57,913 nt of DNA from Clostridiales bacterium. GTDB taxonomy: Bacteria > Bacillota > Clostridia > Caldicoprobacterales > DTU083. This document shows positions 3,613 through 24,876 of the stretch, one piece after another (positions within the stretch are counted from its first letter, which is position 1; each line of letters opens with the position of its first letter). The translations under genes were made by a program, and so were the position numbers. Location of the stretch: positions 1 to 57,913 of the forward strand of contig DUOI01000115.1 in the NCBI GenBank assembly GCA_012838915.1, in the 5' to 3' direction. The notes below the pieces were generated by a model that had not been told where the DNA came from, made no database searches, and worked only from the letters and a program-made list of their open reading frames with translations.

Positions 3613-4032
3613 CTAGAAAAAACCGGGTATCAGAAAAAATAATAATGAGCCAAACACTTTACCCAAAAGAACTACTATAACGATAAGATATACCCACCTG
3701 GTAGCATTCAGTTTTTTGGCTGCCACTGATATAATATCCAGCGTTTCAGTAAGCGCAGCCACTATAGTCCCCACAAAAACACCCATAAGAAATCCCAATG
3801 GAACGGAGATGAACTTCAGATGCTTTATAGAAAAATCAAAGAAATATACAAAGCAGGAGAGCATTGCACCAAGAATCATACTGATTTGAAAAAATAACAA
3901 ATACTCTTCCCTTTTAGTCCATTGAATTATACGGGCGGTTACACCCAATACCACAAAGAATGCAGTGATGCTTGCGCCGATGGCAAGGCCCCCTGCTAAT
4001 CCAACTAAGATTGTCAGTATGACTTTTGTCAA
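3613..4032 (-). CDS. spoVAB: stage V sporulation protein AB
   Basis: 139-aa integral membrane protein with about four hydrophobic segments (near residues 5-30, 43-66, 72-95, 110-135). Length and pattern match SpoVAB (about 141 aa). SpoVA proteins sit in the inner spore membrane and are needed for dipicolinic acid movement during sporulation and germination; the separate role of AB is not settled. TTG start overlaps the spoVAA stop as TTGA, with GGAGGGG 11 nt upstream, so the two are translationally coupled. In B. subtilis the operon is transcribed in the forespore by sigma-G. Confidence 0.85.
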   Translation of the reverse strand: MTKVILTILVGLAGGLAIGASITAFFVVLGVTARIIQWTKREEYLLFFQISMILGAMLSCFVYFFDFSIKHLKFISVPLGFLMGVFVGTIVAALTETLDIISVAAKKLNATRWVYLIVIVVLLGKVFGSLLFFLIPGFF

Positions 4033-4844: not shown

Positions 4845-5260
4845 CCCGTCAGGCTATCTTATTGTACTCATTATATGAATTCATTATTCAAAGTATAAAT
4901 AAGGGATAAGCGGGCAGTGGGGAGGGCAGTGGGGACAGTTCTCAATTATTGGGCCAATGGGGACAGTTCTCAATTATTAAATTATTGCTTAGCTATTATG
5001 AGTTTTGGAGGTGATTTAAGGACGCATTTGGTAAAACGGTTTTCCGGTTTCCCGGAATACGAGCAAATTGTACGAAAGAGTTGAAGTCTGTAATCTGAAT
5101 CCTGATAACCTGATAAAAAAAACGAATCCAGGTTTTGGATGAGTCAAGAAAATAATTGGGAAATGCAATCATGTACTTCAGCGGATTTGAAAAAATGAAG
5201 GCGGAGATCGGTATAAATACCTGATTTGAATGAAACATCTCATGATTAGCTGCGTCACCA
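4845..5260. other. sigF-spoVA intergenic region, repeats and possible gene debris
   Basis: This gap between the spoVA genes and the sigF stop is unusually long for this operon. It holds two RAYT-type repeats (4931-4978). On the plus strand a GGAGGTGAT-like sequence near 5009 precedes an 18-codon frame, and other short frames follow up to 5240. None is long enough to call; it could be decayed coding DNA. No clear terminator follows sigF. Confidence 0.4.
4931..4978 (+). repeat. pair of RAYT-associated-type repeats (GGGGACAGTTCTCAA)
   Basis: Two direct copies of a 20-nt sequence, core GGGGACAGTTCTCAA followed by TTATT, at 4931-4950 and 4959-4978 (28-nt period). The sequence before the first copy (4912-4930) carries a local duplication of GGGCAGTGGGGA. 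Same family as the copies at 14.3-14.5, 18.2, 19.8, 22.3-22.4 and 24.8 kb. Confidence 0.85.
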
Positions 5261-14348: not shown

Positions 14349-14462
14349 GGGGACAGTTCTCAACTTTCGGGACTACGGGGACAGTTCTCAACTTTTTCAG
14401 CTTTTAGCTATTCAACCCTTGCTCATCTTTACAAATCCGTTAAGAAATTGAGAACTGTCCCC
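14349..14462. repeat. three RAYT-type repeats, two direct and one inverted
   Basis: Core GGGGACAGTTCTCAA on the plus strand at 14349-14363 and 14377-14391 (28-nt period, each followed by CTTT), and its reverse complement at 14448-14462. The second and third copies can form a 15-bp stem with a 56-nt loop, which may serve as the terminator between the convergent PBP and mrfB genes. The inverted copy lies inside the mrfB coding sequence. Confidence 0.85.
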
Positions 14463-15879
14463 CTTCAAATCCTTCAACCCCATTTCTTAAGCTTCTCTCC
14501 AGTTTCCTGATCAAACGCCTCCTTCTGGCAAACAATTCCTCCCTCAGCTTGGAGGAGTTTCCGCTTCTCGCATCTGCCAGCAGAATAGCCCTATCTGTAC
14601 ATTTTAGGGCTTTCTGAAAATCTTTTTTCCCGTGTTCCAGGTATTTCGCCATTTCAATTAATGGGAATATCAACAAATTTCCTTCTTCTTTAATCAGATC
14701 AATCCATATATCCATTGCCTCTTCGGGGCCCTCATACCTCTTCTTAAGGTAGGCTAACCTTTTTTTAGCCTCTACTGTAAGGGAATGTTTTTGGGAGATC
14801 TGAATACAGCGTTGATAGCAGGCTGCTGCTTCCTGAATCTTGTAATTTCTCTCCAATTCTTTTGCTGCACCAAGCAATTCATAGGCATCCCCCCTGCCCA
14901 TCGGATCTTGGTATAAGCTGTTTACATGCAGCAGCAATGCTGCCATTGCCGCAATATCCCATTCATTATGTTGTATTACCCGTTTCATCATATCCGGATT
15001 TCGATTTTCAAGATAATCAAAATATATCCCGGGAATTTGAGAGCCCGGAATATCGTCTTCACGAACGTGGCTGAGAATACTTTTCTCAATAGATGAAAGA
15101 GAACAGCTTTCCAAACGCTGTCCCCACAGCCGTCTTGAAGTATGCAGCAAGTCCAGGTGTGCATCCTCCCAGGTGATTGTTCCAAGTCTCGAATAAACCA
15201 GCCGGCTCTCCAGCAAGGGCCAGTCAAAGGATTTTCCGTTAAAGGTAATCAGCACCCGAAACTTCTTAAGGGTTTTCATAACCGACTGCAGCATTGGATA
15301 TTCCTCATCAAAATCCCTCATCAGGTACTGTTCAATGACCAAGCCCTGATCTGTGACATAGCCTAAACCGATCAGAAATGCATAGGTACCTGTCCCCCCT
15401 GCCAAACCGGTTGTTTCGGTATCAAGGAACACTATGTCACGTGAGTGCAGATTTTGATTTAGTCTGGTCCACCATCTGGAATTCGGAAATTCTGAAGTCA
15501 TCAATCCGGATAAATTGATTTTCCCATAGCTTGTGTTAATTTCATATATGGTGCGTTTTCGTACAAAGAATCCATCCGCTTCTTCGACTATCTGACCTCC
15601 AAAATCTCCTCTTGCTTTGATATGATTCTCTAAGGAAGTATGAATTTTATTGTCTGCAGTATGTGCTTTTACATGGTGCTTATTATCGCTATCGTCAGTG
15701 TTGTTCTTTTCCCTGCTGCGGTTCACTTCTACATAATCAAAAGCTCCGTTAATTCTAATTCCATCTTCCAAGCTCGAACCGGGTTCATTTGGGGGTGAGG
15801 CAGCAGAGCCTTGACCATGATTAAGCGAAGGGGAGCTTGATGACATTGCTTTGAGCTTGCTCTTCAAATTGCGTATCAC
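14440..15879 (-). CDS. mrfB: MrfB-type 3'-5' exonuclease (YprB family)
   Basis: 479 aa. The RNase H-like exonuclease domain has D153 and E155 in FLDTETTG, an FNGKSFD motif II and a later NEWDIAAM motif, as in DnaQ-like DEDD nucleases. A TPR-like helical region follows. In B. subtilis MrfA and MrfB (formerly YprA/YprB) act together in repair of mitomycin C lesions. GTG start at 15879 with GGGAGG 8 nt upstream, overlapping mrfA by 59 nt. The N-terminal ~90 residues are low-complexity and poorly conserved-looking. The last residues (GGQFSIS) and the stop are encoded by a RAYT-type repeat, so the native C-terminus was probably replaced. Confidence 0.88.
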   Translation of the reverse strand: MIRNLKSKLKAMSSSSPSLNHGQGSAASPPNEPGSSLEDGIRINGAFDYVEVNRSREKNNTDDSDNKHHVKAHTADNKIHTSLENHIKARGDFGGQIVEEADGFFVRKRTIYEINTSYGKINLSGLMTSEFPNSRWWTRLNQNLHSRDIVFLDTETTGLAGGTGTYAFLIGLGYVTDQGLVIEQYLMRDFDEEYPMLQSVMKTLKKFRVLITFNGKSFDWPLLESRLVYSRLGTITWEDAHLDLLHTSRRLWGQRLESCSLSSIEKSILSHVREDDIPGSQIPGIYFDYLENRNPDMMKRVIQHNEWDIAAMAALLLHVNSLYQDPMGRGDAYELLGAAKELERNYKIQEAAACYQRCIQISQKHSLTVEAKKRLAYLKKRYEGPEEAMDIWIDLIKEEGNLLIFPLIEMAKYLEHGKKDFQKALKCTDRAILLADARSGNSSKLREELFARRRRLIRKLERSLRNGVEGFEGGQFSIS

Positions 15880-18136
15880 CTAGTATTCCTCCCAGTATAT
15901 TCATTGCCAATTGCTTGCCGTTCTCCGTAACTTCCGCACTGGGTCCGACACATGCAGGACAGCCGTTCTCACAAGCACATTCGGATATTATTTCGCATGC
16001 TTTCTGAAACAATTCCAGATGCAACTCATACAAGCGCTCGCTGAAACCAATGCCTCCGGGGCAGCTGTCATAGATATATATTGTGGGCTTTTGAGTAAAG
16101 GGGGATTTTACATGATAAACTACATGAATATCACGGGGATCGCACATCAGGTACAAGGGCGCGATCTGGCCCAGCACATTGGCAATTCCCATCAAGCCAT
16201 TCTGCAGATCATCCTGGCTGTGGATGGTTTCCGGAATTTCATTCAAGGTCAGCCAATAGGCAGTTGTCTGAAGTTCCAGTTCAGGCAGATGAACCTGCCC
16301 CCAGCCCAGATTTTCATGGGTATCAAATTTGATTTTCTTAAACATGGTAACCAGGGAGGTTACCATAACATCTCCCCAGTTTCTGCTTGTTCTATTTTCA
16401 TCTGCTGATTGAAAAACATCCAGCACCTTCAATGTAACAGCAAGGCTGGCATCAGTATAGTAGTCCACGTCCACTTTTCTTACATAAGCCTTCTTTTCCT
16501 CAAAATCAAGCTTTTCAACCTGATACTGGATTCCCTCATGAATGTATATGGCTTCCTCATGAACAAGCTGCGGTGCGCTAAGACGATCGGTTTCCCCTAT
16601 TACCCTGTGCCTGGGTTCGGATATGTCAATAATGATAAAATTCTCATTGGCAGCAGTACGGAGACTTACAGCATCGGCTGGAAAGTTCTCGGCAGTCCAA
16701 TACCAGCGGTTGCCAACATGACGCAGCACCTTTTCTTCTTCAAGGAATTCCAGTATCTGCTCCAGCGTATCCACGCCGAAGGTCTCACCGTCTTCAAAGG
16801 GAAGCTCGAAGGCAGCACACTTGATATGAGACATCAGAATATATAAATTGTTTGGATTAATCAGGCCGTGTTCCGGACTGGATTCCAGGAAAAACTCAGG
16901 GTGTTGAATAATATATTGATCCAAAGTATTGCTGCTGGCTATCATAATGGCAATAGAAGTGTCATTTCTCCTGCCTGCCCGGCCCGCCTGCTGCCATGTG
17001 CTGGCGATGGTTCCCGGGTAGCCGCACATAATGCATACCTGAAGCCTTCCAATGTCAATACCCAGTTCCAAAGCGTTGGTACTGACTACACTTAAAATAT
17101 TTCCGGAGCGAAGACCTTGTTCGATTTCGCGCCTTTGGTTGGGAAGGTAGCCGCCCCGGTATCCCCTGACAGTTCCGGAGTTGCCTAATTTATCCTGAAC
17201 CAGCTGCTTCAGGTAGGTGACCAGCACTTCGACGGTGAGCCGGCTTTTAGTGAACAATATGGTCTGTATTTTGTTGAGAATAAAGTCAGAGGCAAGCTTT
17301 TTTGCCTCTAGAATGGAGCTTCTTCGGATGCCCAATTGCTTGTTTACCACGGGAGGATTATAAAATACCAGGTGTTTTTTGCCGGATGGTGCACCGTTTT
17401 CATCAATAAGTTCCGCTTCCCTGCTTATGATACGCTCTGTAAGCTCCTTCGGATTGGCTATGGTAGCGGAACAGCAAATGAATTGTGGGTTGGAACCATA
17501 GAATTTGCATATACGGTGAAGCCGGTGCAGTACATTTGCAAGATGGCTCCCAAATACTCCGCGGTAAGTGTGAATTTCGTCTATAACTACATATTTTAAA
17601 TTCTCAAATAATTTTACCCATTTTGTATGATGGGGCATAATACCGGAATGAAGCATGTCTGGATTTGTAACAACAATATGGCCGGCCTGACGAATAGCCT
17701 TTCTTGCACTGACCGGTGTGTCGCCATCATATGTGTAAGTTTTAATTGGCTGTCCCAGAATGTCCATAAGTTCATGGAGTTCGCTTACCTGATCCTGTGA
17801 CAGTGCTTTTGTAGGGAAAAGATATAATGCCCGGGCATCATTATTGTTCAATATTTCATTGATTACAGGTAGATTGTAGCATAAGGTTTTCCCGGAGGCA
17901 GTGGGTGTAACAACTACTACATTTTTGCCTTGGAAAATTATATTTATTGACTTGGATTGATGGGAGTAGAGCTGATGAATCCCTTTCTTTTTCAGGGCTT
18001 CCCGCAATTCCGGTCGCAGATTCTTGGGAAATGGACCATACTGTGCACTTTTGGACTCGATTTCCTTCCAATGTGTAACATTTCTCATTATTTTAGGGTT
18101 ATTGCGTATATAATCTACCAATTGATCGATGTTCAT
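15821..18136 (-). CDS. mrfA: MrfA-type DEAD/DEAH helicase with C-terminal Cys cluster
   Basis: 771 aa, superfamily 2 helicase of the YprA/MrfA family (3'-5' DNA helicase in mitomycin C repair). Walker A TPTASGKT (77-84), DEIH (186-189), CSATIANP motif III, and QQAGRAGR motif VI are present. The C-terminal DUF1998-type region holds the metal-binding CACENGCPACVG cluster at about 720-730. Start uncertain: ATG 18136 has AAGGGG about 10 nt upstream; ATG 18145 is too close to it. The open frame continues upstream to 18247 through RAYT-type repeats, but that part is not coding. Followed by mrfB with a 59-nt overlap. Confidence 0.9.
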   Translation of the reverse strand: MNIDQLVDYIRNNPKIMRNVTHWKEIESKSAQYGPFPKNLRPELREALKKKGIHQLYSHQSKSINIIFQGKNVVVVTPTASGKTLCYNLPVINEILNNNDARALYLFPTKALSQDQVSELHELMDILGQPIKTYTYDGDTPVSARKAIRQAGHIVVTNPDMLHSGIMPHHTKWVKLFENLKYVVIDEIHTYRGVFGSHLANVLHRLHRICKFYGSNPQFICCSATIANPKELTERIISREAELIDENGAPSGKKHLVFYNPPVVNKQLGIRRSSILEAKKLASDFILNKIQTILFTKSRLTVEVLVTYLKQLVQDKLGNSGTVRGYRGGYLPNQRREIEQGLRSGNILSVVSTNALELGIDIGRLQVCIMCGYPGTIASTWQQAGRAGRRNDTSIAIMIASSNTLDQYIIQHPEFFLESSPEHGLINPNNLYILMSHIKCAAFELPFEDGETFGVDTLEQILEFLEEEKVLRHVGNRWYWTAENFPADAVSLRTAANENFIIIDISEPRHRVIGETDRLSAPQLVHEEAIYIHEGIQYQVEKLDFEEKKAYVRKVDVDYYTDASLAVTLKVLDVFQSADENRTSRNWGDVMVTSLVTMFKKIKFDTHENLGWGQVHLPELELQTTAYWLTLNEIPETIHSQDDLQNGLMGIANVLGQIAPLYLMCDPRDIHVVYHVKSPFTQKPTIYIYDSCPGGIGFSERLYELHLELFQKACEIISECACENGCPACVGPSAEVTENGKQLAMNILGGILGDTQFEEQAQSNVIKLPFA

Positions 18137-18202
18137 CCGAACCATACCCCTTTTCAAATCTCTTCTATCAATTATATATATTTTGCTGTGGAATGTCCAT
18201 GT

Positions 18203-18258
18203 GGGGACACTTCTCAACTTTTTCTCAACTTTTTTACTTGGGGACATTTCTCAATTTT
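18203..18258 (+). repeat. pair of variant RAYT-type repeats
   Basis: GGGGACACTTCTCAA at 18203-18217 and GGGGACATTTCTCAA at 18240-18254, direct, 37 nt apart. Each differs from the core by one base at position 8. Between them is an extra partial unit, TTTCTCAACTTTTTT. They lie on the 3' side of the RAYT gene. Confidence 0.8.
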
Positions 18259-18594: not shown

Positions 18595-19530
18595 TTACGC
18601 TGCTTTTACTGCCTCATCTATGAGCTCATCAAACAAATCAGAATATATTGTTTCGCCTTTAATAAGCAGTTTGTAGCCTTTCTCACATAGCTGAGAGCAG
18701 CAGGATATCGTTATACCGGTTATACTATGACATATTTCTCGGTAGCTCAAACCGCATAATACCCTAAGAACATATGCACAAAAGGAACGATAATTCATCG
18801 TTTTGTGTTTCCCTTTCCAGGCTATATGAAAATTTGGTGAATAGTTCAATCGCCTGGAGATAAATGATAGTACCTCTTCAGGTGAAACATTTCTAAGAAT
18901 AACATTCCGACCGCTTATGTATTCATTCTCAACTTCAATTAATGCTTGCTTTTTGAATTCATCTATATTATCTGCCTGCCTTTGATGTGTTACCAATTCA
19001 CTATATTTATATTCAAAGTTTTCACTCTTTGCATGGAGAAGCTCCATGATAAATCTCTTATCTATAAGGTTATACTCGTCTTTCCTTATACCTAAATAAA
19101 TACCATAGGATGAATAGGGGTATTCCTCTTCTCTGCCACAATATTCGGGAATATCTTTAGGGTTGTTATGTATATAGGCTGATACTGCCAGGTTATACCG
19201 ATCAGAGTCCAGTATTCTGCTTTGAAACCTGCCTTGGAATAAGTGACCATGCCTCTCATATTTCATGTTGTAGTATCTTACGTATGCAGTGTTTAGACTA
19301 TGCATAAATCTAGACACATCAAAACCCTTTGGATCCAAATGAATATGAACATGATTGTCCATCAGGCAATATGCATACACACTGGATTTATACTTCTCTT
19401 TATACCTTTTAAGCAGTAATAAATAGTATTCCTTATCAGCCTCTTCCCTGAACAGGAGTACTTCTGAACAACTTCTGCTAATAATATGATAAATGGCCAA
19501 CTCATGCTTTTCGCGTGCTTTCCTGGGCAT
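18595..19530 (-). CDS. REP-associated tyrosine transposase (RAYT, IS200-like HUH protein)
   Basis: 311 aa from ATG 19530 (AGGTGG 8 nt upstream). The Y1 transposase fold is clear: HUH motif H60-V-H62 in MDNHVHIHL, the GHLFQGRF block, and the YIHNNP motif with the likely catalytic Y119. The C-terminal ~100 residues carry a helix-turn-helix-like region with YVLRVLCGLSYREI, similar in layout to the DnaA C-terminal domain often found in RAYTs. RAYTs are single-copy domesticated relatives of IS200 transposases that mobilise REP sequences. Here the gene is flanked by GGGGACAGTTCTCAA-type repeats in opposite orientation on its two sides. No IS ends are seen, so it is not a normal insertion sequence. 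Confidence 0.88.
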   Translation of the reverse strand: MPRKAREKHELAIYHIISRSCSEVLLFREEADKEYYLLLLKRYKEKYKSSVYAYCLMDNHVHIHLDPKGFDVSRFMHSLNTAYVRYYNMKYERHGHLFQGRFQSRILDSDRYNLAVSAYIHNNPKDIPEYCGREEEYPYSSYGIYLGIRKDEYNLIDKRFIMELLHAKSENFEYKYSELVTHQRQADNIDEFKKQALIEVENEYISGRNVILRNVSPEEVLSFISRRLNYSPNFHIAWKGKHKTMNYRSFCAYVLRVLCGLSYREICHSITGITISCCSQLCEKGYKLLIKGETIYSDLFDELIDEAVKAA

Positions 19531-19853
19531 GTTTGCCACCACCTATAATAATTATGAGATTGGGCAGAAGAATTATTTGTTTTAATGATTCCAGTATAGC
19601 ACAGAACATCTGTTCGGTAAAGGTTCTTTTAGATATTTTTTCAAGTATATGTTAAAATTTTTTAATTAGTTAATGAGTGTTCCCGATACCTAGATAGTCG
19701 GGTTTTATAAAAGAACAAGCCTTTTAGCTTAACACTTTGTGCAAAGTTTCAGGCTTGTTCCGTTATTGCCTTTTTGAATTTTTCCGATAGTTTTTGAGGA
19801 GTGTCCCCATACGCAATTATTGAGAACTGTCCCCTATATGCCCTATATGTGCC
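19531..19853. other. region between the RAYT gene and lpd
   Basis: 323 nt. Contains an inverted repeat GAACAAGCC / GGCTTGTTC (about 19714-19761) that can form a stem-loop, one RAYT-type repeat (19820-19834), a partial repeat GTGTCCCC at 19801-19808, and three tandem CCCTATATG units at 19832-19860 that run into the lpd stop codon. No gene. Confidence 0.6.
19820..19834 (-). repeat. RAYT-type repeat downstream of lpd
   Basis: TTGAGAACTGTCCCC on the plus strand, that is a perfect core on the minus strand. Its orientation is opposite to the copies on the other side of the RAYT gene. Confidence 0.85.
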
Positions 19854-21367: not shown

Positions 21368-22687
21368 TTATAAAAATGCATAAAAGGGATCCTCAATAAT
21401 GTCTTTTAAGTTCTTCAGAAAGGCCGCTCCGACTGCGCCGTCAATCACCCTGTGATCACAGGAAAGAGTCATTTTCATTTGAGTCTGTACCTTAATACTG
21501 TCTTCCTCACCTACCACCGGCATTTTCTTCATTTGTCCGACAGCCAATATGGCAGAACCAGGAGGATTGATAATTGCAGTGAATTCTTCAATTCCAAGGG
21601 AACCCAGGTTGCTGATTGTAAAACCCGGGTTTTGGTATTCTTCAGGCATTAATTTGTTGTTCCTGGCTTTCTCTATTAATTCATGCAGCTCATTTTCAAT
21701 TGCAATAAGGCCTTTGTTTCCGCAATCACGAACCACTGGCGTAATCAAACCGTCTGATAATGCAACAGCCAGACCTATATCAACCTGTTTTCTCTTGAGA
21801 ATAGTATCGCCGAGCCAGCTTGCATTCACCATTTGGTGCTTCTTTAATGCTTCAGCTGCGTACTTTATCAAAAACGCATTAATAGATAGCTTTTCCGACA
21901 GTGATTCATTTAGTTTATTTCTGGTATTAATCAGATTATCAACGGTTACAGTCACCGTCAGGTAGTAGTGAGGTGCACTATATTTGGATTCCGACAAGCG
22001 CTGCGCTATTACCTTCCTCCTGGGAGAAACAGGAATTATTTCCTCCTCTGATGCTGCTTGCACAGTATACGCAGCAGATGGTTTTGCTGACAATGGCCCT
22101 TTTACAGCCCATTCTTCCTTGACTGGTTCTTGTTTGGCAACTCTCTCTTTAATGAGTTTCTCTACATCTGCCTTTATTATGCGGCCGTCTGGTCCGGTTC
22201 CACTTATATCATTCAATGAAAGTTCATTCATCTCCGCTAACTTACGAGCTAATGGCGATGCCTTGATGCGAGAATCTGCCATAATATTGGTTGCGGTTCT
22301 ACGCCCGCCTTTCATTGCAGTGCTCACTCCTGAGTGAATTTCTTGAGAACCGTCCCCACCACTTACTGAGTAGAGTTCTTGAGAACTGTCCCCGTCACTC
22401 AACTTTTGAGAACTGTCCCCGTTGCTTGGCAGGGCATTAATTTTTTCGCCTGCCTCGCCGATAATTGCAATAGTGTCCCCAATAGCAGCGCCCTCGCCCT
22501 CCCGTACAAGAATTTTCAGCAGTGTTCCTTCACTGGTGGACTCATAATCCATGGTGGCCTTGTCGGTTTCCACTTCGCACAATATATCACCAACATCGAC
22601 CCAGTCGCCTTCCTGCTTATGCCACCTGACCAGGACTCCTGCTTCCATGGTAGGTGACAGGGCAGTCATCAATACTTGTTCAGCCAT
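21368..22687 (-). CDS. pdhC: dihydrolipoamide acetyltransferase (E2) of pyruvate dehydrogenase
   Basis: 439 aa from ATG 22687; an upstream TTG frame start at 22762 lacks a ribosome binding site. Domains in order: one lipoyl domain (1-80) with the modified K43 in ETDKA; linker (81-133); peripheral subunit-binding domain with SPLARKLA (about 144-180); second linker; catalytic acyltransferase domain (about 215-439) with the CDHRVIDGA active-site His/Asp. The first linker contains three copies of the RAYT-type repeat in frame, read as GDSSQ, GDSSQ and GDGSQ (residues 90-94, 99-103, 111-115). They add a hydrophilic Ser/Gly/Gln-rich stretch where E2 tolerates length change. Confidence 0.95.
   Translation of the reverse strand: MAEQVLMTALSPTMEAGVLVRWHKQEGDWVDVGDILCEVETDKATMDYESTSEGTLLKILVREGEGAAIGDTIAIIGEAGEKINALPSNGDSSQKLSDGDSSQELYSVSGGDGSQEIHSGVSTAMKGGRRTATNIMADSRIKASPLARKLAEMNELSLNDISGTGPDGRIIKADVEKLIKERVAKQEPVKEEWAVKGPLSAKPSAAYTVQAASEEEIIPVSPRRKVIAQRLSESKYSAPHYYLTVTVTVDNLINTRNKLNESLSEKLSINAFLIKYAAEALKKHQMVNASWLGDTILKRKQVDIGLAVALSDGLITPVVRDCGNKGLIAIENELHELIEKARNNKLMPEEYQNPGFTISNLGSLGIEEFTAIINPPGSAILAVGQMKKMPVVGEEDSIKVQTQMKMTLSCDHRVIDGAVGAAFLKNLKDIIEDPFYAFL
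22343..22420 (-). repeat. three RAYT-type repeats inside the pdhC linker
   Basis: Minus-strand copies at 22406-22420 and 22379-22393 (perfect GGGGACAGTTCTCAA) and 22343-22357 (GGGGACGGTTCTCAA, one change). Start-to-start spacing 27 and 36 nt, both multiples of three, so the reading frame is the same in all. Confidence 0.92.
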
Positions 22688-24836: not shown

Positions 24837-24876
24837 TTGAGAACTGTCCCCCCTCCAAAAGTTGAGAACTGTCCCC
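24837..24876 (-). repeat. pair of RAYT-type repeats between pdhA and the PPOX gene
   Basis: TTGAGAACTGTCCCC at 24837-24851 and 24862-24876 on the plus strand (core on the minus strand), 25 nt apart. A degenerate GTTGAGAAAGTGAGG unit precedes them at about 24817-24831. Confidence 0.88.

Follow-up and report, generated by a model that had tools for sequence, protein, structure and literature searches.

The tnp locus

The window (the whole stretch of DNA analysed: 57,913 nucleotides of a Clostridiales bacterium, contig DUOI01000115.1) carries on its reverse strand a gene, tnp, for a Y1/HUH single-strand transposase. The gene is bracketed by two inward-facing repeat units of GGGGACRNTTCTCAA type per side (here called end units), and mrfA/mrfB-like genes adjoin it. 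The features referred to below are as follows:

4931–4973, + strand: tandem pair of end units
14349–14462, no single strand: small inverted group of end units, two + and one −; candidate non-autonomous element
15824–18136, − strand: mrfA-like helicase gene (MZB domain), just past the 3′ end units
18203–18217, + strand: outer end unit on the 3′ side of tnp, GGGGACACTTCTCAA; adjoins the apparent mrfA promoter
18240–18254, + strand: inner end unit on the 3′ side, GGGGACATTTCTCAA
18595–19542, − strand: open reading frame containing tnp (from the list of reading frames)
18598–19527, − strand: tnp, Y1/HUH single-strand transposase with a DnaA domain IV-like tail, 310 amino acids
18601–18897, − strand: DnaA domain IV-like C-terminal domain, residues 211–309 (profiles, predicted structure)
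18661–18744, − strand: helix-turn-helix, residues 262–289, with predicted recognition helix 274–289 (AlphaFold2 model)
19033–19527, − strand: HUH/Y1 catalytic part, residues 1–165 (alignment, 4er8_A match)
19593–19621, − strand: predicted promoter, TTTACC-17-TATACT (hexamers by eye)
19604–19615, − strand: predicted LexA (SOS) box GAACAGATGTTC, within the promoter spacer
19794–19808, − strand: inner end unit on the 5′ side of tnp, GGGGACACTCCTCAA
19820–19834, − strand: outer end unit on the 5′ side, GGGGACAGTTCTCAA
19835–19860, − strand: short tandem duplication of CACATATAGGG type, whose end lies within the opening bases of the outer 5′ unit
22343–22420, − strand: three in-frame end units in the gene for E2 (2-oxoacid dehydrogenase acyltransferase), read as GDSSQ, GDSSQ and GDGSQ
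24837–24876, − strand: tandem pair of end units

The best start of tnp is an ATG at 19527, preceded by AGGTGG eight bases upstream; an earlier reading of this DNA from the sequence only had set the end of the frame at 19530, one codon or less from this ATG. The mrfA-like reading frame (15821–18247) is too long at its 5′ end: because about its first 37 codons cross the end units and an apparent promoter, its start is placed near 18136 rather than at 18247. Units of the forms GGGGACAG and GGGGACAC match the motif GGGGWSAS, whereas the inner 3′ unit, GGGGACAT, does not.

Y1_Tnp (PF01797; residues 11–122, E = 1e-13) is the only significant Pfam match of the window protein, and an AAA+ ATPase domain is absent. 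Across an alignment of 58 rows (the window protein and 57 long relatives), H59 and H61 of the HUH motif and Y118 are invariant, the last of which we take to be the catalytic tyrosine from the YIHxNP motif. In the AlphaFold2 model built from this alignment (full length: mean pLDDT 90.2, pTM 0.89), E. coli TnpA_REP (4er8_A) aligns with residues 1–189 at Z 15.8. The profile for classical REP-associated transposases (NF047646) scores 39.6 bits, below its cut-off of 80, in agreement with the sequence-only reading, which had suggested that the C-terminal domain may distinguish this group from the classical enterobacterial TnpA-REP. A second Y1_Tnp fragment in the same genome (L002; G000:C136:107-241) is broken, with one internal TGA.

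A predicted DnaA domain IV fold in the tail

Beyond the catalytic core, the model is confident over most of the tail, with block means of pLDDT of 89–96 at residues 241–300, 66 at 231–240 and 48–67 at 191–210. The predicted tail helices span residues 216–226, 241–258, 262–268, 274–289 and 293–309; the segment LCGLSYREI (residues 257–265), from which a DnaA-like helix-turn-helix had been proposed on sequence alone, takes in the last part of the long helix together with the first helix of the helix-turn-helix. DnaA chains rank directly after 4er8 among the structural matches (1j1v, 3pvp, 8btg, 3r8f and 1l8q, with 2hcb at rank 8). The chain 1j1v_A, DnaA domain IV bound to a DnaA box, superimposes on the tail over 93 of 94 residues (model residues 214–308; Z 12.5, r.m.s.d. 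2.0 Å), and in Foldseek the whole model matches 1j1v with a target TM-score of 0.79 (probability 1.00, E = 0.069). Modelled alone, the tail has a pLDDT of 81.9, below that of the full-length model; its top ten Foldseek chains in the PDB (six entries) are all DnaA, at E values of 0.04–0.65, and no match reaches E ≤0.001.

Since the Foldseek E values for DnaA are weak, the assignment of the fold draws on the TM-score, the Z score and the profile match. In the latter, hhalign aligns the 58-member tail profile with a DnaA domain IV profile (21 members, picked from 28 extracted out of 30 loci) over 75 columns, with a probability of 89.7 and an E value of 1.9e-6 for this single comparison. At E ≤0.1, Bac_DnaA_C is matched by 30 of the 58 members, the strongest at 1.4e-8. 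The window protein is absent from this set: alone it has no Bac_DnaA_C match in Pfam and no PDB match by sequence search, and its DnaA likeness becomes visible through relatives, profiles and structure. Sigma70_r4_2 is weakly matched by 14 of the 58 (best E = 0.0026). In a genome scan with PF08299, the tail of one relative (G039:C95) scores 33 bits against a Pfam cut-off of 31.5, and a broken copy (G049:C45) scores 25.2 bits, under the cut-off. Tail residues 211–309 are thus predicted to have the DnaA domain IV fold, and the suggestion of a DnaA-like C-terminal domain is borne out at the level of the model; the unrelated fold that would have told against it did not emerge. The turn GGRDHTT of DnaA reads TGITISC in the tnp tail, with ITISC in place of RDHTT, the residues that presumably contact the DnaA box in DnaA.

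Long-tailed and short-tailed relatives

Twenty more distant complete relatives are shorter (245–287 amino acids) and carry a helix-turn-helix of the type LSxRQIxRxTGISRGIV. A profile of these proteins at full length has a weak match to the long tail (E = 3.6e-4, probability 37) and scarcely any to DnaA domain IV (E = 0.05, probability 1). On a tree of the core domain of 78 proteins (three near-copies or fragments excluded), in which L020, L021, L022 and L103 have long branches, 19 of the 20 short proteins cluster and the distribution of long and short types takes two changes. A single clade for the long type did not emerge from this tree, one change being possible and two being found.

Ends of the element

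Of the members with 400 bp or more of flank on both sides, 35 of 53 long ones and 11 of 18 short ones have an inward-facing pair of GGGAC and GTCCC within 400 bp; 13 long and 4 short members have a single inward side, 5 long and 3 short have neither, and the outward arrangement of GGGAC occurs in one member of each group. Copies within one genome also place the ends. In all five sets compared (L050/51/52, L075/76/81, L045/49/60/63, L047/57 and L070/85), the match ends at, or a few bases from, (G)GGGAC on the 5′ side, and in four sets it ends at or near GTCCC(C) on the 3′ side, the Anaerobacterium set being aligned on its 5′ side only. The tips on the 5′ side are degenerate in L050 and L052. 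Among the seven groups compared for ends, L065/L067/L092, L038/L040/L043 and L058/L059/L061 were left unused, sharp ends being absent there (common flanks or low identity). A gene-less, shortened element with both ends (L051:227-613, in UBA12179) lies beside a full copy on the same contig.

Over 43 loci, the bases that follow GGGAC agree at 7.8 of 9 positions between the ends of one locus and at 5.5 of 9 between loci, a contrast that is inflated by the choice of the best-matching pair per locus and the demand for at least 12 of 17 matches. Under the same selection of loci, the long group has TT at positions 8–9 of the end motif (1.63 and 1.69 bits), where the short group reaches 0.45 and 0.52 bits, and GGGAC[AG].TT fits 81 of 88 ends in the long group and 10 of 24 in the short one; as the short sample blends several lineages, this difference is only suggestive. 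Apart from a preference for G at −1, no target motif beyond GGGAC was found. Folding of 60-nt ends, measured against mononucleotide shuffles, gave mean z values of −0.91 (88 long ends), −0.52 (24 short ends) and −0.43 (56 controls); recognition of the ends as hairpins seems less likely, the folding being barely above that of controls. Helical phasing of the tandem units (spacings of 25–28 and 36–37 in the window) was dropped, because unit spacings differ widely among relatives.

In partial Mantel tests, the distance between end motifs correlates with that of the core after control for the tail (r = 0.22, p = 0.003) and, less strongly, with that of the tail after control for the core (r = 0.12, p = 0.036), so the test does not single out the tail as the reader of the end motif; the core tracks the ends at least equally.

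Short tandem duplications abut the tips of the units, and comprise flank together with the first G's of the unit. Tandem duplications of at least 7 bases that reach the tip, counted after excluding ends with a further GGGAC in the 40-base flank, were found at 17 of 106 tnp-locus ends and at 7 of 19 units in the genome of the window. Control sites have them less often, with 31 of 1517 when anchored on GGG and 46 of 1666 when chosen at random (Fisher tests against the GGG-anchored controls: 1.6e-9 and 1.3e-7, respectively); some of these duplications are of low complexity, and one end of the window is counted in both sets. They may stem from nicking and slippage that recurred at the tip.

Repeats follow the gene across genomes

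A survey of 21 genomes (13 of the family and 8 of the order) found exact copies of GGGGACRNTTCTCAA in six: 29 in the window's own genome (G000), 16 in G002, 26 in G003, 27 in G005, 26 in G012 and 12 in G009. None was found in the remaining 15, and the reversed pattern, searched as a control, was absent from 20 genomes and matched once in G013. The long tnp is present in five of the 21 (G000, G002, G003, G005 and G012); the genomes are related and do not amount to 21 independent cases. In G009 no tnp was found and a lone 3′ unit lies beside mrfA; loss of tnp is likely there rather than certain, given an assembly that is 71% complete. G001, from the window's own genus, has neither tnp nor GGGGACRNTTCTCAA repeats.

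Many units share a contig with tnp (13 of 29 in G000, 13 of 16 in G002, 8 of 26 in G003, 14 of 27 in G005 and 9 of 26 in G012). With units of up to one mismatch, clusters near tnp number 6 of 21 (p = 1.3e-5), or 4 of 19 when the element's own ends are excluded (p = 0.0014). Local hopping was not concluded from this clustering, which may reflect inherited positions, since the E2 array is common to the genomes. That array lies in an E2 gene of the pyruvate dehydrogenase type, within the linker that follows the lipoyl domain. Exact units are present there in G002 (4), G005 (2), G012 (3) and G003 (3), all in the same frame as in the window, so that every tnp-bearing genome of the family set, five in total, has in-frame E2 units; the E2 gene of the tnp-less G001 has no end units.

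A fixed locus under selection

In the window and in G002, G003, G005 and G012, which represent five genera, tnp has the same place between genes for a lipoamide dehydrogenase and the mrfA-like helicase. Fitting a codon model to the five syntenic orthologs gave an omega of 0.059 for the whole gene (0.034 for the core and 0.085 for the tail), values that are rough because synonymous sites are saturated. From the common locus in five genomes and the omega of 0.059, tnp is inherited in place and maintained by purifying selection here, while the element is multicopy in other lineages.

A predicted LexA box in the tnp promoter

The promoter of tnp reads TTTACC-GAACAGATGTTCTGTGC-TATACT, its hexamers being recognised by eye, and its spacer contains an operator of the type GAACN4GTTC. 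This corresponds to the LexA operator consensus as given in PMC4234289. In the region from 160 bases upstream to 20 bases downstream of the start, strict GAACN4GTTC was found in 14 of 65 long members, where 0.065 were expected from mononucleotide shuffles, and in none of 20 short members; the 65 include seven truncated or incomplete proteins, and rows with fewer than 150 bases available were excluded. Half of these 14 come from two genomes as multiple copies. Those placed on the tree, nine in number, all fall within the window's 22-row clade, and four Anaerobacterium loci have the box a short way inside the element end.

The window's genome has a similar box before recA (34–40 bases ahead of the start) and two before lexA. 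Genome-wide, the pattern alone is weak (24 sites, against 19 for the reversed pattern), and the weight is therefore borne by position and by the match to recA and lexA. An assignment of the box to mrfA was rejected, because the 400 bases ahead of the helicase match contain no LexA-like box in any of seven tnp-less genomes (L149–L155). From its promoter sequence, tnp is predicted to be under SOS control.

In the tnp-less G001, a promoter with a LexA box stands directly ahead of the mrfA-like helicase gene (L148, about 3831–4001). From the sequence, we infer that mrfA probably captured the tnp promoter there after tnp was lost.

Comparison with known systems

The type of protein, the DnaA-like tail and the GGGGWSAS ends are already published (PMC6006769, PMC3733652); the LexA-type box, the in-frame E2 units, the tip duplications, the co-occurrence of repeats and gene, and the fixed locus are added here from sequence comparison. 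Like tnp, members of TnpA_REP/TnpA_Y1 subclass 2.1 (2.1.2) join a HUH/Y1 core to a C-terminal Bac_DnaA_C or helix-turn-helix-like domain, and, according to the passages of Quentin et al. 2018 (PMC6006769) that deal with them, were already set apart there from classical REP transposases, their genes having flanking GGGG[AT][CG]A[CG] repeats and no adjacent REP-like sequence. Those passages name neither an SOS box nor in-gene units nor tip duplications, all present at tnp, and do not settle whether the terminal repeats or some other target is what the DnaA-like tail reads. TIRYTs and TIRtrons, in the relevant parts of Di Nocera et al. 2013 (PMC3733652), likewise have a Y1 transposase between inverted GGGGWSAS repeats, which are also dispersed, dimeric or clustered; within genes, those parts report REPs and not GGGGWSAS repeats. 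The locus described here differs in its longer motif, GGGGACRNTTCTCAA, in its in-frame copies in E2 and in the LexA-type box of its promoter.

E. coli TnpA_REP/RAYT (4ER8) shares the fold of the HUH/Y1 core, its solved chain having 165 residues against the 310 of tnp; as summarized in PMC8266576, it reads GTAG-tagged REP hairpins as single strands. A link to DNA damage like that predicted for tnp is known for transposases that are not described, in the portions of the sources drawn on, as TIRYT or RAYT: control by LexA was shown by experiment for ISCR transposases (PMC13393415), irradiation triggers transposition of ISDra2, a Y1 single-strand element of the IS200/IS605 family (PMC2806898), and a LexA operator is predicted at an unnamed ‘Transposase’ of C. 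difficile (PMC4234289). Compared with the experimental case of ISCR, that of tnp is a sequence prediction. In literature searched by titles and abstract openings, no report of LexA control of a RAYT or TIRYT was found; rayT appears in one promoter table, which in the part available lists it without LexA, and another paper containing both kinds of term matched through an author's name alone.

Interpretation

Along its full length, the tail is predicted to share both its fold and the order of its helices with the DnaA domain IV structures (1J1V, 3PVP); tnp differs from DnaA in the fusion of this domain to a HUH nuclease, in the absence of an AAA+ domain and in having ITISC for RDHTT. By its features (Y1 core, DnaA-like tail and GGGGWSAS inverted ends), tnp probably belongs to the TIRYT type, TnpA_REP subclass 2.1. 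The best explanation, which we consider probable, is that tnp is such a transposase, that its tail is a DnaA domain IV-like DNA-binding module and that its synthesis is induced by the SOS response. DNA damage would inactivate LexA and raise the synthesis of the transposase; the tail would grip end units as double-stranded DNA and thereby position the HUH active site, which would nick and join one strand once exposed by replication or repair; and the same protein would act in trans to multiply both the end units and their small inverted groups.

That the tail reads the end repeat is plausible. We counted in favour the inverted, conserved ends, the additional TT that accompanies the DnaA-like tail, the slight folding and the way in which the repeats track the gene, and against it the GGGAC ends of relatives with a short helix-turn-helix (11 of 18) and the Mantel result, which leans to the core. 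Also counted against the explanation are the weak Foldseek E values, the replacement of RDHTT, the confinement of the LexA box to one clade (with half of its carriers from two genomes and a pattern that is weak genome-wide), the unmoved state of tnp itself in the window's family and the saturation that makes omega rough. The more specific proposal, in which a damage-induced HUH transposase finds its ends as duplex through a DnaA-type domain and its units spread, including into the E2 linker, where they persist as GDSSQ across genera, is put forward only tentatively.

Alternatively, the tail might direct the protein to replication (DnaA boxes, the origin or the fork), with the HUH core alone reading the ends, as in E. 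coli TnpA_REP. This we regard as rather unlikely: although GGGAC ends are found with the shorter tail too and the core tracks the end motif no less closely than the tail does, the presumed DnaA-box contact residues RDHTT are replaced, the conserved TT at positions 8–9 was gained in the group with the DnaA-like tail, and ends that barely fold are unlike the substrate of a hairpin-reading core. Targeting of the fork was proposed by Quentin et al. 2018 (PMC6006769).

The constancy of the locus in five genera, the omega of about 0.06, the SOS-type promoter and the mrfA/mrfB-like neighbours would all suit a host-domesticated factor, acting for instance in DNA repair near these genes, whose repeats are by-products or regulatory sites. 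Yet members of the same clade are elsewhere multicopy with sharp ends, G001 of the same genus does without tnp, and no LexA-like box precedes the helicase match within 400 bases in the seven tnp-less relatives, which makes domestication somewhat less likely still. An ordinary insertion sequence whose DnaA likeness is that of any helix-turn-helix is very improbable; helix-turn-helix folds are common, the Foldseek E values for DnaA are weak and Sigma70_r4_2 is weakly matched by some members, but the match covers the whole domain (93 of 94 residues), the top ten chains are all DnaA, and the profile alignment to DnaA domain IV runs nearly end to end.

This locus, with a confident domain model and a defined 15-bp unit, could serve as a compact system to decide whether the DnaA-like tail reads terminal repeats, and the matched genomes with and without tnp, together with the TT of the long group that the tail may read, add to its value for such a test. 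A genuine SOS box would mean that the transposase processes DNA in connection with DNA damage, a tie established by experiment for ISCR transposases.
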